Origin: Jejuia pallidilutea
Lineage (GTDB): Bacteria; Bacteroidota; Bacteroidia; Flavobacteriales; Flavobacteriaceae
Assembly (NCBI RefSeq): GCF_002973595.1
Contig: NZ_PVEO01000005.1
Location: 124,001 to 188,000, forward strand
DNA: 64,000 nt
Reading direction: 5' to 3'
Part shown: piece by piece, positions 28,969-63,126 of the stretch
Numbering within the stretch: position 1 is the stretch's first letter
Layout of the letters: each line of letters starts with the position of its first letter
The notes under the pieces: generated by a model
Seen by the model: only the letters and a program-made list of their open reading frames with translations
The model's database searches: none
Told to the model about the DNA's origin: nothing
Position numbers and translations under genes: made by a program

Positions 28969-28984
28969 TCTTTTAAAAGCCAAA

Positions 28985-29016
28985 AAAAATGCCTCGCTAA
29001 ATCGAGGCATTTTTTA
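28985..29016. terminator. Bidirectional intrinsic terminator
   Basis: A perfect 9-bp stem AATGCCTCG (28988-28996) with CGAGGCATT (29003-29011) has T runs on both strands. It can end both the 150-aa gene and the aromatic operon that converges on it. Confidence 0.85.
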
Positions 29017-29032
29017 TTATGGCAAACAAGAT

Positions 29033-30115
29033 CTATCCGTTAATAATTTTCTCTTGGTGATTTATAGATTCTTGGTGAATAGCCTTAAACATTTTTAAAA
29101 TAAACTCTTCGCTTAATCCATGCTCTTTTCCTTCTAGTACCATACGGCCTAAAATTTCATTCCAACGTTTACTTTGTAATACAGCAACGTTCTTTTGCTT
29201 TTTAAGTTCACCTATACCATCTGAAGCTTTCATACGTGTGCCTAACAACTCTATAATTTGATTGTCTACCACATCAATTTTAGCTCTTAATTTATCTAAA
29301 GCCATATTGTACTCAGACTCAGCATCGGTTTCTTTTCTAATTTTTAAGTCTTTCATAATTTGAACCAAAGTTGATGGTGTTACTTGTTGCGCAGCATCAC
29401 TCCATGCATTATCTGGATCGGTATGTGTTTCAATCATTAACCCATCAAAATTCAAATCTAAAGCGGTTTGAGACACATCAAAAATCATATCTCGTTTACC
29501 TGTAATATGCGAAGGATCGTTGATTATTGGTAAATCTGGAAATTTAGTTTGTAACTCAATTGCCAATTGCCACTTTGGTTTATTTCTATATTTGGTTTTT
29601 TCGTAGGTAGAAAATCCTCTGTGGATTACTCCTAATTTTTGAATGTTCGATGCGTATAAACGCTCTATAGCACCTAACCATAGCGGTAAATCTGGGTTTA
29701 CTGGGTTTTTTACTAACACTATTTTATCTGTACCTTCTAAGGCATCGGCAATTTCTTGAACTATAAACGGGCTTACTGTAGAGCGCGCCCCAATCCATAA
29801 TAAATCTATATCATGCGCTAAAGCTAATTTTACATGGTTTGCATTGGCTACTTCAGTTGCGGTTTTCATCCCCGTTTCTGCCTTAACCTTTTGTAACCAT
29901 TTTAGGCCTAAATGCCCTACGCCTTCAAAGTTCCCTGGGCGAGTTCTTGGTTTCCAAATTCCAGCTCTAAAATAGTTTACGTCGGTATCTTTTAGCTCGT
30001 GCGCTATTTTTAAAACTTGCTCTTCGGTTTCAGCACTACAAGGGCCTGCGATTACTAACGGATGATCTAACTGTAAATCATCTAACCAAGCTCTCATTTC
30101 TTTCTTGTTTTCCAT
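29033..30115 (-). CDS. Bifunctional DAHP synthase / chorismate mutase, 360 aa
   Basis: The N-terminal part is a KDO8P-synthase-like (type I beta) DAHP synthase with AGPCSAETEEQ, FRAGIWKPRTRPGNFEG, LWIGARSTVSPF and the metal-site segments RGFSTYEKTKYRN and NDPSHITGKR. The C-terminal ~95 residues (from LDKLRAKIDVVDNQIIELL to the end, including GELKKQKNVAVLQSKRW) are an AroQ-type chorismate mutase. The mutase probably lets prephenate or chorismate control the synthase, as known for such fusions. It is the last gene of the pheA operon. The gene is often called aroF or aroG/pheB in this group, so I assign no symbol. Confidence 0.92.
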   Translation of the reverse strand: MENKKEMRAWLDDLQLDHPLVIAGPCSAETEEQVLKIAHELKDTDVNYFRAGIWKPRTRPGNFEGVGHLGLKWLQKVKAETGMKTATEVANANHVKLALAHDIDLLWIGARSTVSPFIVQEIADALEGTDKIVLVKNPVNPDLPLWLGAIERLYASNIQKLGVIHRGFSTYEKTKYRNKPKWQLAIELQTKFPDLPIINDPSHITGKRDMIFDVSQTALDLNFDGLMIETHTDPDNAWSDAAQQVTPSTLVQIMKDLKIRKETDAESEYNMALDKLRAKIDVVDNQIIELLGTRMKASDGIGELKKQKNVAVLQSKRWNEILGRMVLEGKEHGLSEEFILKMFKAIHQESINHQEKIING

Positions 30116-30206: not shown

Positions 30207-31061
30207 TTAATGTATTCCGTTTAATATATCTTTAATATGATTGGTGTTTTTCATCTCATTAAATATGGCTTCGAAATTATCGTCTTTCATCAGCTCTTTA
30301 AAATGATTAAGGTTATTAATATATTCCTCTAGCGTTTCTATAACGTTGGTTTTGTTCTGCTCAAAAATTGGTGTCCACATTTCTGGTGAACTTTTGGCTA
30401 ATCGCACAGTTGAAGCAAAACCACTTCCAGCCATATCAAAAATATCGCGTTCGTTTCGTTCTTTGTCTATCACCGTTTTACCCAACATAAATGCACTTAT
30501 ATGAGACAAATGCGATACGTAGGCAATATGTCTATCATGTTCCACAGGATTCATGTAGCGCATACGCATACCAATATCTGAAAATAACTTTAATGCTTTT
30601 TCTTGTAGTTTGAAGGTGGTCTTTTCAACCTCGCAAACAATATTGGTTTTACCTATAAACAAACCTTCAACTGCTGCTGTTGGTCCAGAATGTTCGGTTC
30701 CTGCAATAGGATGCATTGCTAAAAAGTTTCTACGTTTAGGATGGTTTTCTACTGCCTTACAAATAGCTTCTTTTGTTGAGCCTGCATCTACCACCAACCC
30801 TTTATCTGATATTTTATCTAAAATAGTTGGCAATAGTTTTACTGTAGCATCAACAGGAATGGAAACAATTACTAAATCGGCATTAACTATATCGTCTAAA
30901 GTTGCTTTTCTATCTATTAGCCCAAGCTCTAATGCGGTATTAAGCGTGGTGTCTTTTCTACTTATACCATGAATAACAACTTCTGGGTTGTGCTTCTTGA
31001 TATCTTTTGCAAGACTACCTCCTATTAAACCTACTCCTATGGCATATATATGTTTCATCAA
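30207..31061 (-). CDS. tyrA: Prephenate dehydrogenase, 284 aa
   Basis: Converts prephenate to 4-hydroxyphenylpyruvate in tyrosine synthesis. The N-terminal Rossmann motif is AIGVGLIGGSLAKDI. The catalytic His is expected in LAMHPIAGTEHSG and later SHLSHISAFMLG. Only the dehydrogenase module is present, with no chorismate mutase (that is fused to the DAHP synthase downstream). The start MM gives two equal choices three bases apart. It lies between the aminotransferase and the DAHP synthase in the same operon. Confidence 0.92.
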   Translation of the reverse strand: MMKHIYAIGVGLIGGSLAKDIKKHNPEVVIHGISRKDTTLNTALELGLIDRKATLDDIVNADLVIVSIPVDATVKLLPTILDKISDKGLVVDAGSTKEAICKAVENHPKRRNFLAMHPIAGTEHSGPTAAVEGLFIGKTNIVCEVEKTTFKLQEKALKLFSDIGMRMRYMNPVEHDRHIAYVSHLSHISAFMLGKTVIDKERNERDIFDMAGSGFASTVRLAKSSPEMWTPIFEQNKTNVIETLEEYINNLNHFKELMKDDNFEAIFNEMKNTNHIKDILNGIH

Positions 31062-31173: not shown

Positions 31174-32319
31174 CTACTTCACTCTTGCTATGGCTTCTTC
31201 TAAAATTTCGGTTGAAGCGCATAAAGAGAACCGTATGTAACCTTCGCCTTGACTCCCAAAAATGGTTCCTGGCGTTATAAATATGTGATTCTCTTTCAAT
31301 ACTACATCTATAAACTCTTCAGATTTTAAATATGCTGGTAATTTTGCCCACACAAACATTCCTGTTGCATTTTTATCGTAGGTACAGTTTAAAGCTTCGG
31401 CTAATTGCCACACCAAATCGCGTCTCCTTTTATAAACACTATTTAGGGTTACAAACCACATTTTAGAGCATTTTAAGGCTTCTACGGCGCCTTTTTGTAT
31501 GCCATAAAACATACCAGAGTCCATATTACTTTTTACCTTTAATATATTGCTAATGTGCCCGCTATTTCCTAAAACCATACCCACGCGCCATCCTGCCATA
31601 TTAAAGGTTTTGCTTAAGGAATTTAGTTCTAAACACACCTCTTTGGCACCATCAACACTCAAAATACTTTTGGGGTTATCGTTTAAAACAAAACTGTAAG
31701 GATTATCGTTAACAATTAAAATATTATGGCGTTTCCCAAAGGCCACCAACTCTTTAAAAATGGTTTCAGTTGGTGTTGCTCCCGTAGGCATGTGTGGATA
31801 ATTTACCCACATAAGTTTTACATTACTTAAGTCTTGCTTTTCTAGGACTTCAAGATTTGGCATCCAGTTGTTAGCAGCATCTAAATTATACAACACACCT
31901 TTTGCACCTACTAATTTTGTTACAGATTGGTATGTTGGATAACCAGGGTTTGGAATTAACACCTCATCACCTTCATTTAAATATGCCATAGAGATATGCA
32001 TAATGCCTTCCTTACTCCCCATTAGCGGCAATATCTCGTTAGCAGCATTAACACTAACAGAAAAATGATTTTTGTAAAAGGCAGACATTGCTTCGCGTAA
32101 TTCTGGCAGTCCTTGGTAGCTTTGATATTTATGTGCTACCGGATTGTTAAAACTTGCAGTTATGGCATCTACAACTTTTTGGGGCGGTTGTAAATCTGGA
32201 CTACCAATACCTAAATTTATAATAGGCTTGCCGCTAGCTATAAGTAGGCCAACTTCTCTTAATTTTTTTGAGAAATAGTACTCTTCTACCGTATGTAATC
32301 GTTTTGCTACCTCAATCAT
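31174..32319 (-). CDS. Class I/II PLP-dependent aminotransferase, 381 aa
   Basis: An aminotransferase of the fold-type I group, probably for aromatic amino acids given its place in the operon. It has the cofactor signature LSKTFNMAGWRVG with the PLP-Lys, NPGYPTY and YPHMPTGATPTE. The stretch MIEVAKRLHTVEEYYFSKKLREVGLL is a normal N-terminus. Its start overlaps the pheA stop by four bases, so translation is coupled. It presumably transaminates phenylpyruvate and 4-hydroxyphenylpyruvate; histidinol-phosphate or another substrate is not excluded. Confidence 0.88.
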   Translation of the reverse strand: MIEVAKRLHTVEEYYFSKKLREVGLLIASGKPIINLGIGSPDLQPPQKVVDAITASFNNPVAHKYQSYQGLPELREAMSAFYKNHFSVSVNAANEILPLMGSKEGIMHISMAYLNEGDEVLIPNPGYPTYQSVTKLVGAKGVLYNLDAANNWMPNLEVLEKQDLSNVKLMWVNYPHMPTGATPTETIFKELVAFGKRHNILIVNDNPYSFVLNDNPKSILSVDGAKEVCLELNSLSKTFNMAGWRVGMVLGNSGHISNILKVKSNMDSGMFYGIQKGAVEALKCSKMWFVTLNSVYKRRRDLVWQLAEALNCTYDKNATGMFVWAKLPAYLKSEEFIDVVLKENHIFITPGTIFGSQGEGYIRFSLCASTEILEEAIARVK

Positions 32320-33143
32320 ATCTTGGCATTTTTATATTCTCCTAACAATTTAAAATTTTGCCCCATAATCTCAATAATGGACTTTGCCTTTAAGAAATCT
32401 GCGTAAGCCTCGAAAGTTACATCTACAAAAAAGGCGTATTTCCAGGGTGTTTTAATAATTGGCAACGATTGAATTTTAGTTAAATTCAATTTACAATCGC
32501 TCATCACATTTAAAATAGTAGCTAAACTGCCTCTTTTATGGTCGGCTTCAAACTTAATTGATGCTTTATTAATTTCGTTTTCTGGCACTTCAGAGTTAGT
32601 TCGCTTTACCACAGCAAACCGGGTTTCGTTATGTTTTATGGTTTGAATACTATGTGCCAAAATATCCAAATTAAAAATATCGGCGGCCAAAACACTAGCA
32701 ATAGCACCAATATTTTTAAGTCCTTTAGCGTTTATACGTTCTGCAACTTCGGCAGTATCCTTATCTTCTACCAGTTTTATATTGGGGTAATCCTTAAAAA
32801 AGTCTTTACACTGCAACAATGCCATAGGGTGCGAGTATACCTCTTTAATATCTTCGATATTTTGATTTGGCAATGCCATTAAATTATGCTGAATATCTAA
32901 GTAATGCTCTCCAACAATGTGTAATTGGTAATCATCAATTAATGCGTAATTTGGTATTATAGACCCTGCAATAGAATTCTCTAAGGCCATAATAGCTGCA
33001 TCGCACTCTTGGTTAATAAGGGCTTCCACTACCCTATCAAAGGTCATGCACTCAATAATATCTACAGGTTCACTAAAAAACTCCTGCGATACTATGTGGT
33101 GAAAACTACCTCTTATTCCTTGTATGGCTACTGTATTTATCAT
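32316..33143 (-). CDS. pheA: Prephenate dehydratase, 275 aa
   Basis: Converts prephenate to phenylpyruvate for phenylalanine. The sequence starts MINTVAIQGIRGSFHHIVSQEF. It has the catalytic segment NETRFAVVKR (TRF) and a C-terminal ACT domain (GSLATILNVMSDCKLNLTKIQSLP) that binds phenylalanine in related enzymes. No chorismate mutase is fused at the N-terminus, unlike in enterobacteria. The ATG follows a terminator hairpin and U-run with no gap, and a Phe/Tyr-rich leader frame lies just upstream. The gene is thus probably controlled both by attenuation and by feedback. Confidence 0.95.
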   Translation of the reverse strand: MINTVAIQGIRGSFHHIVSQEFFSEPVDIIECMTFDRVVEALINQECDAAIMALENSIAGSIIPNYALIDDYQLHIVGEHYLDIQHNLMALPNQNIEDIKEVYSHPMALLQCKDFFKDYPNIKLVEDKDTAEVAERINAKGLKNIGAIASVLAADIFNLDILAHSIQTIKHNETRFAVVKRTNSEVPENEINKASIKFEADHKRGSLATILNVMSDCKLNLTKIQSLPIIKTPWKYAFFVDVTFEAYADFLKAKSIIEIMGQNFKLLGEYKNAKI

Positions 33144-33173
33144 AAAAAAAAGTCTCGATTTTCATCGAGACTT
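33144..33173 (-). terminator. Attenuator (intrinsic terminator) in the pheA leader
   Basis: On the minus strand AAGTCTCGAT, a GAAA loop (a GNRA tetraloop) and ATCGAGACTT form a perfect 10-bp stem (33150-33173). U residues run directly into the pheA ATG at 33143. This is a complete intrinsic terminator placed between the leader peptide and the first structural gene. Confidence 0.85.
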
Positions 33174-33217
33174 GTATTAAGATATATTGTTATAAACTAT
33201 ACACACAACGTCTCGAT
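33164..33217 (-). promoter_or_regulatory. Candidate antiterminator pairing in the pheA leader
   Basis: ATCGAGAC at 33217-33210 (codons 20-23 of the leader frame) is complementary over 8 bp to GTCTCGAT at 33171-33164, which is the 5' arm of the terminator. The two pairings exclude each other, as in the classical attenuator. A ribosome stalled on the aromatic codons (33250-33227) leaves the first arm free and favours readthrough. Confidence 0.7.
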
Positions 33218-33277
33218 TTCTTTGCAAAAAAAGAAATAAAAAAAGTTGAAATATGTATAATACGTTGTTGTTCTCAT
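33197..33277 (-). CDS. pheA leader peptide, 26 aa, Phe/Tyr-rich
   Basis: A 27-codon frame upstream of pheA (ATG at 33277, TAG at 33197) encodes a peptide with six Phe and four Tyr among its first 17 residues; residues 9-17 read YFNFFYFFF. It ends in codons that carry the 5' arm of the antiterminator. A promoter-like pair lies just upstream. The composition matches the role of the E. coli PheL leader, which senses charged tRNA-Phe. Here Tyr codons may add tyrosine sensing, fitting an operon that makes both amino acids. No Shine-Dalgarno is evident, as is usual in this phylum. Confidence 0.8.
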   Translation of the reverse strand: MRTTTYYTYFNFFYFFFCKEIETLCV

Positions 33278-33288
33278 AATTACGTTGG

Positions 33289-33318
33289 CTAAAGTAAATA
33301 ATATTTTAAGAAATCAAA
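33289..33318 (-). promoter_or_regulatory. Promoter of the pheA leader transcript
   Basis: On the minus strand TTTG (33318-33315) is followed after 18 bases by TACTTTAG (33296-33289), one mismatch from TAnnTTTG. It lies 11 bases before the leader ATG, so the 5' untranslated region would be very short. Confidence 0.5.
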
Positions 33319-33424
33319 ATACTATAAAACCTTTTTTCTGGTTTTATTAAAAGTTTTAAAGAATTTACAACAAAATTTAGATTACATTACATAATCACTA
33401 TTTTTGACAAAACAATTTAGAAAT

Positions 33425-46655: not shown

Positions 46656-46786
46656 TGGCATTCCCCTATCGGGTCGGGCTTTCCATTATATCTTTTTTAG
46701 TTTGTTCTCGATATAAATTTGCTCATGCTTCACAAATTTACTCGAACTGGCACTAAAAAAGGATGTCATTTCAATCCCTAATGCAC
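46656..46786 (+). repeat. Dispersed intergenic repeat element, copy 3
   Basis: Starts GGCATTCCCCTATCGGGTC, continues GGGCTTTCCATTATATC, and after a variable middle ends with AAAAAAGGATG ... CAATCCCTAATGC. It fills most of the 356-base gap between cysE and the FNR-like gene. The remaining bases between it and the FNR-like stop (46787-46884) hold nothing recognisable. Confidence 0.65.
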
Positions 46787-59097: not shown

Positions 59098-59275
59098 GGG
59101 CATTCCCTAAAGGGTCGGGCTTTCCGCTATATCTTTTTTGTTGTTTTAGAACCTGCGTCGTTGCGAGTTTACCGAAGTAATCTCCTCGTCCCAAGAGATT
59201 ACTTCGTCGTGCCTCCTCGTAATGACGCCCTATTTGCCATTACAAAAAAGGATGCCGCTGCAATCCCTAATGCAC
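59098..59275 (+). repeat. Dispersed intergenic repeat element, copy 4
   Basis: GGGCATTCCC, then AGGGTCGGGCTTTCCGCTAT and, after a middle, AAAAAAGGATGCCGCTGCAA ending CAATCCCTAATGC. The middle carries a nested CGTCGTTGCGAG ... GAGATTACTTCG ... CGTAATGACG palindrome. The remainder of the 59071-59397 gap (59276-59397) holds the hairpin at 59325 and nothing else I recognise. Confidence 0.75.
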
Positions 59276-62902: not shown

Positions 62903-63080
62903 GGGCGTTCCCCGGTCGGGTCGGGCTTTCCGCTATATCTTTTTTGTCTTAACCTCAGCGTCGTTGCGAGTTTACCGAAGCAATCTCCTAATTCCTAGAG
63001 ATTACTTCGTCGTACCGCCTCGTAATGACGGGCTTGTTTGTCAGCTCAAAAAAGGATGCCGCTGCAATCCCTAACGCGGG
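62903..63080 (+). repeat. Dispersed intergenic repeat element, copy 5
   Basis: GGGCGTTCCCCGG, GGTCGGGCTTTCCGCTAT, a middle with nested CGTCGTTGCGAG ... GAGATTACTTCGTCG ... CGTAATGACG, and AAAAAAGGATGCCGCTG ending CAATCCCTAACGCGGGC. Together with the neighbouring palindromes it fills the 62812-63323 gap. I see no gene there. The ends GGGCGTT and AACGC[GGG]C are inverted. Confidence 0.75.
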
Positions 63081-63126
63081 CTATCAGCCAATATCTTTTT
63101 ATTCCTAAAAGTCGTTTAACTTTTGT

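Follow-up and report, generated by a model that had tools for sequence, protein, structure and literature searches.

The window analysed here, 64,000 nucleotides of the Jejuia pallidilutea genome, carries on its minus strand the genes pheA, a class I/II aminotransferase, tyrA and DAHP synthase, preceded by a short reading frame and a set of hairpins (Table 1). The domain matches of the four genes, and the same gene order in 55 of 60 diverse genomes, show that a preliminary description of this DNA, made from the sequence alone, was right to place them in one operon; pheA and DAHP synthase occur together in all 60. The genome is close to Hyunsoonleella, its pheA being 93% identical to that of H. 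jejuensis.

Table 1. Features of the pheA leader region and operon, in window coordinates
Feature	Position	Strand	Evidence
'-33' promoter element, TTG, 18 nt from the -7 box	33315..33317	minus	sequence; 136/196 loci
'-7' box TACTTTAG, Bacteroidota TAnnTTTG type	33289..33296	minus	box count over loci
Leader peptide frame, MRTTTYYTYFNFFYFFFCKEIETLCV and stop; ATG at 33277, stop codon ends at 33197	33197..33277	minus	sequence; kept in relatives; aromatic codons concentrated in leader frame
Hairpin 1:2, Phe-codon stretch with leader end	33206..33248	minus	fold without ribosome; upstream pairing in 176/196 loci
Region 2, antiterminator 5' strand, ATCGAGAC-G-TTGTGT, within last leader codons	33203..33217	minus	folds; pairing matrix between lineages
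Region 3, antiterminator 3' strand, ATACAA-GTCTCGAT, last part also terminator 5' arm	33164..33177	minus	folds; pair counts
Terminator hairpin 3:4, 10-bp perfect stem, GAAA loop	33150..33173	minus	sequence; terminator scan; folds of relatives
Terminator U-run, abuts pheA start codon	33144..33149	minus	sequence
pheA, prephenate dehydratase, weak ACT domain match, first gene of the operon	32316..33143	minus	PF00800 4.5e-56
Class I/II aminotransferase	31174..32319	minus	PF00155 7.8e-57
tyrA, prephenate dehydrogenase	30207..31061	minus	NF006307 above cut-off; PF02153/PF20463
DAHP synthase fused to chorismate mutase	29033..30115	minus	PF00793 + PF01817
Strong terminator right after last gene, probable operon end	28984..29015	minus	13-bp stem, loop, T-run

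The leader frame has 26 codons and its predicted translation contains six Phe and four Tyr, all among residues 1-17, so that, as in a classical attenuator, a short frame rich in codons for the products of the operon precedes it. Between this frame and the first structural gene lies a conserved intrinsic terminator (33173-33144), which consists of AAGTCTCGAT-GAAA-ATCGAGACTT (33173-33150) and a run of T6 (eight T in all) that reaches the pheA ATG at 33143. On all these points, namely the aromatic-rich frame, the perfect 10-bp stem with its GAAA loop and the U-run touching pheA, the sequence agrees with the preliminary description. That description also held that eight base pairs join the end of the leader to the 5' arm of the terminator. 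The pairing, of ATCGAGAC (33217-33210, codons 21-23) with GTCTCGAT (33171-33164), is present, and it and the terminator are mutually exclusive, but its length was understated: past one bulged base the antiterminator gains six further pairs (33208-33203 with 33177-33172) and measures 14 bp. Likewise, the two competing hairpins that had been taken for the full attenuator are both encoded, but a third hairpin, 1:2, had been overlooked, and it completes the classical three-state design.

Predicted folds of the window RNA, in which the position of any ribosome is set by assumed footprints, differ among the three states. When a ribosome occupies a control codon, the antiterminator of 8+6 bp forms, at roughly -16 to -19 kcal/mol as long as region 4 has yet to be transcribed. 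Once the ribosome is at the stop codon, the terminator alone remains (-14 kcal/mol), and the ribosome-free RNA adopts 1:2 plus 3:4 (-32.3 kcal/mol). Measured from the end of the stop codon, region 2 begins 21 nt upstream and region 3 around 23 nt downstream, the latter distance having a median of 24 nt over the loci described below. Under the assumed footprint, a ribosome on a control codon thus leaves region 2 free, and one at the stop codon covers region 2 and not region 3. Region 2 is free for a median of 91% of the aromatic-codon stall positions over loci, and for 100% in the window.

Within this AT-rich 64-kb window, nine of the 401 ATG frames that span 15-45 codons have a comparable richness in Phe and Tyr, and the leader has the highest Phe/Tyr count per 17-residue stretch among them all. 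In a scan of 19 kb around the leader, terminator-like sites were no commoner than in shuffles. Taken singly, neither Phe/Tyr richness nor a terminator is more than moderately unusual in one window. Because Phe/Tyr-rich frames recur in the window and terminator sites are at shuffle level, conservation must decide. The combination of leader and terminator, together with the conservation of both, rules out chance.

We compared 237 regions upstream of pheA: 110 from close relatives (two overlapping sets), 80 from Flavobacteriaceae (one per genus) and 47 usable loci obtained by searching at order and class level. An aromatic-rich leader followed by a GC-stem terminator with a T-run was found in 223 of these regions, representing 196 distinct leaders, many of the loci being close relatives of each other. 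The arrangement is present in 188 of 190 Flavobacteriaceae loci (78 of 80 when each genus is represented once) and, outside that family, in 35 of 47 loci from other Bacteroidia families. Conservation of the short frame or of either pairing in relatives had been proposed as the test of the attenuator reading: the frame, its aromatic codons, the terminator and the antiterminator are all kept in the family and beyond it, and the strands of the pairing change in a linked fashion, as the proposed covariation had anticipated. Among the exceptions, L220 and L221 lack the leader and have pheA directly behind another gene, as is probably the case for the related L222; in L236 the parts are present and were missed by our stem finder. 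In six loci of one family (L214-L219, family f16, from 0.6-Mb genomes) pheA is kept and no leader or terminator was found. The 0.6-Mb size suggests that these bacteria are obligate endosymbionts, and the absence fits a loss of regulation in reduced genomes.

The predicted alternative folds, with ribosomes again placed by assumed footprints, recur across the 196 distinct loci. With a ribosome on the median aromatic codon, the antiterminator forms in 183 loci (mean z of -3.4 against dinucleotide shuffles), and placing it at the stop codon gives the terminator in all 196. In the ribosome-free minimum free energy fold the terminator is present in 193, and the leader end pairs upstream (1:2) without a ribosome in 176. 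Region 3 carries GTCTCG in most loci, and GTCCCG, TCCCG, GCCTCG, TCCTGA, GTTCCG or CCGCTC in the others. When pairing was scored by type with G-U pairs down-weighted, leaders and region 3 of the same type gave mean scores of 16.3-21.1, above each mismatched type of the same row. In 55 of the 68 loci whose region 3 is one of the less common types, the resident leader pairs better than at least 95% of GTCTCG-type leaders would. In a swap test that allows G-U pairs, 33% of swapped leaders pair equally well; this test is weak because most loci have one common region-3 sequence, and it is partly blunted by G-U pairs, which permit loose pairing between unlike lineages. The codon phase of region 2 varies by type, CGAGAC being read as C-GAG-AC in the common type and CGGGAC as CG-GGA-C in others. 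Since the two strands change together and region 2 lies in differing codon phases, it is the RNA pairing and not the peptide that is conserved. For one pair between regions 2 and 3, MAFFT pair counts, which are diluted where region 2 changes frame between lineages, gave A-U in 125 loci, G-C in 53, G-U in 12 and a broken pair in three. When the best such pair is traced over a protein tree of 109 loci, it shows around two double and around ten one-sided changes, so that independent events at this pair are modest in number.

A TTG element together with a TAnnTTTG-like box was recognized upstream of the leader in 136 of 196 loci, compared with 7.75 in shuffles. Because the spacing from the -7 element to the transcription start is 4-5 nt in Flavobacterium johnsoniae (PMC6847099), the start is predicted at 33284 or 33283, giving a 5' untranslated region of 6-7 nt; 87% of predicted F. 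johnsoniae transcripts have more than 10 nt before the start codon (PMC6847099). The leader AUG is preceded by A at -3 in 79% and at -6 in 58% of the loci set, in agreement with the Kozak-like preference described in the same study (PMC6847099). Such a near-leaderless start would allow very early engagement of the ribosome. Just upstream of the promoter is an 8-bp inverted repeat, ATAAAACC..GGTTTTAT (33324-33347), whose conservation in relatives is not much above chance.

We consider it highly probable (roughly nine chances in ten) that a ribosome-mediated transcription attenuator of the trp/phe/his leader type controls the pheA-aminotransferase-tyrA-DAHP synthase/chorismate mutase operon. The sequence parts, the geometry, the predicted alternative folds, the conservation and the linked changes were computed; from these we infer that transcription terminates, that the ribosome stalls and that the switch responds to Phe and Tyr. 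RNA polymerase would start around 6-7 nt ahead of the leader AUG, on which a ribosome would initiate with no Shine-Dalgarno sequence to guide it. With charged tRNA-Phe or tRNA-Tyr in short supply, this ribosome would stall in the aromatic codons and leave region 2 free to pair with region 3, so that no terminator would form and the operon would be transcribed. If both charged tRNAs were ample, the ribosome would reach the stop codon and cover region 2, regions 3 and 4 would form the terminator, and transcription would end just before pheA. Were there no translation at all, the Phe codons would pair with region 2 and the terminator would form as well. The products of the operon fit the amino acids that would be sensed.

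A mainly translational switch, in which the terminator hairpin would hide the pheA start until a leader ribosome opened it, is suggested by the U-run that touches the pheA ATG here and by a stem end within 12 nt of that codon in 58 of 196 loci. We regard it as very unlikely, however, as the distance from stem to pheA has an upper quartile of around 61 nt and a maximum of >300 nt, and the T-run is always present. The constancy of the T-run and the variability of this distance point to termination as the conserved function, to which a translational effect may be added in this genome. The pheA start in the window has U, not the preferred A, at -3, since the terminator U-run touches the ATG. The switch may also affect the start of pheA translation.

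A shade less probable again is that the leader acts by peptide arrest: the nascent chain, perhaps together with free Phe or Tyr as a ligand, would stall the ribosome as in TnaC, and the signal would not be codon starvation. Close relatives do have the long stretch YTYFNNWFYFFFSKRNE in common, but across genera the sequence drifts freely with its aromatic content kept, base pairing accounts for the conserved C-terminus, and no residue pattern is evident among the leaders of other families. The commonest replacement between leaders is the exchange of Phe and Tyr (632 pair counts).

Counting against the attenuator reading itself, a codon-position test for coding in the leaders gave no third-position excess. 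Exchange of Phe and Tyr dominates, so that the peptide itself is not under ordinary purifying selection; what is kept is the codon class, not the peptide. At least two Phe and at least two Tyr codons are present in 195 of 196 leaders. A Trp codon, absent from the window leader, is also present in 108 of the 196 (for example L004, L112 and L171), often within NNWFYFFF. These Trp codons occur despite there being no trp gene in the four-gene operon; DAHP synthase supplies all three aromatic amino acids.

The reading of the leader as the control element of an attenuator is also borne out by the other frames of the same DNA, on which, rather than on aromatic content, the weight of the following counts lies, the leaders having been selected for that content. 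Outside region 2, 53% of the codons of the leader frame in the 196 loci are aromatic, compared with 15% and 24% in the other two frames, and the leader frame has 604 Tyr codons compared with 61 and 141. These figures indicate that the leader frame is read by ribosomes. A plain constitutive terminator or another riboregulator (a T-box or a protein-bound leader) behind a chance frame is the least credible alternative, for although T-rich DNA readily yields Phe codons and the window has several other Phe/Tyr-rich frames, the aromatic codons are confined to one frame, the richest of the three in 191 of 196 loci, and relatives keep the competing pairing. No Rfam family, T-box and enterobacterial leaders included, reached its gathering threshold at the leader locus, and no leader family was among the matches up to E = 10. 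The threshold result led us to reject a T-box or any other known RNA, and the locus was not assigned to the enterobacterial Phe leader RNA family, whose covariance model gave no match.

In Escherichia coli, pheL-pheA combines a Phe-rich leader with mutually exclusive antiterminator and terminator hairpins ahead of the prephenate dehydratase gene, and the present locus resembles it in an aromatic-rich leader, exclusive hairpins and the gene controlled. However, the E. coli leader is generally known to use Phe only, whereas here Phe and Tyr, and in relatives often Trp, are encoded. The flavobacterial locus differs further in having no Shine-Dalgarno sequence, a near-leaderless transcript, a four-gene Phe/Tyr/DAHP operon and no covariance-model match. 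The enterobacterial thr and ilv leaders carry control codons for several end products in one leader, and are likewise multi-amino-acid devices, differing in the amino acids and in phylum. Our literature search found no detailed study of a leader-peptide attenuator in Bacteroidota; the abstract of Vitreschak et al. 2004 reportedly mentions candidates in Bacteroidetes/Chlorobi. Leader-peptide attenuators, in common with the pheA leader as to class of mechanism, have been predicted in Proteobacteria, Actinobacteria and Bacillus hisS (PMC1262725, PMC2965389); before its own Firmicutes case, according to PMC2965389, none had been shown outside Proteobacteria and Actinobacteria.

For Flavobacterium psychrophilum, the available text of PMC9723704 (2021) reports strong indications of leader-peptide attenuation ahead of amino-acid operons, and describes 5' elements of pheA and hisG as conserved in other Flavobacteriaceae genera and absent from Rfam. 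The window element agrees with that description, to which it is likened by description, in its gene (pheA), its family, its structured 5' element found in several Flavobacteriaceae genera and its lack of an Rfam match. Judging from the same text, signs of leader attenuation in flavobacteria had already been announced, and the novelty of the present reading is limited to that extent; leader sequence, sensed amino acids, pairings and spread beyond the family do not figure in that text and are given here. Added by the present analysis are the leader itself, the sensed amino acids, the three hairpins, the linked changes, the spread to further families of Bacteroidia and the shortness of the 5' untranslated region. 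Three Flavo-1 RNA motifs, for which the available text of PMC9723704 gives no clear function, score above the Rfam gathering score in the window (46668-46786, 59109-59275 and 62915-63086, minus strand).

The hisG gene of the same genome (L240, G000:C6) is preceded by a leader, MTFTQTHHHFYICSQAK and stop, and then by a terminator, AACCCGTTTGAG-..-TCAAGCGGGTTTTT; the last leader codons contain CTCAAGCG, complementary to the 5' arm of that terminator. This arrangement points to a His attenuator of a design like that of the pheA leader. No similar leader was seen before trpE-type and ilvD-type genes in our family search.

Leader-peptide attenuation requires that a ribosome initiate without delay and stay in step with RNA polymerase. 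To our knowledge, Bacteroidota lack Shine-Dalgarno initiation, and their coupling of transcription and translation seems little explored. An attenuator conserved in almost every Flavobacteriaceae genus tested and in other Bacteroidia families argues strongly, on comparative grounds, for such coupling, and provides a ready-made reporter with which coupling without Shine-Dalgarno sequences is directly testable. Whether one attenuator, throughout the class, senses how well two or three aromatic tRNAs are charged (those for Phe, for Tyr and, in more than half of the leaders, for Trp) from a near-leaderless transcript free of Shine-Dalgarno sequences is to our mind an evenly balanced question; if it does, ribosomes of Bacteroidia would trail RNA polymerase closely, from the 5' end onward, and control termination. 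For a large group of marine and soil bacteria, the operon for aromatic amino acids thereby gains a specific and testable regulation.
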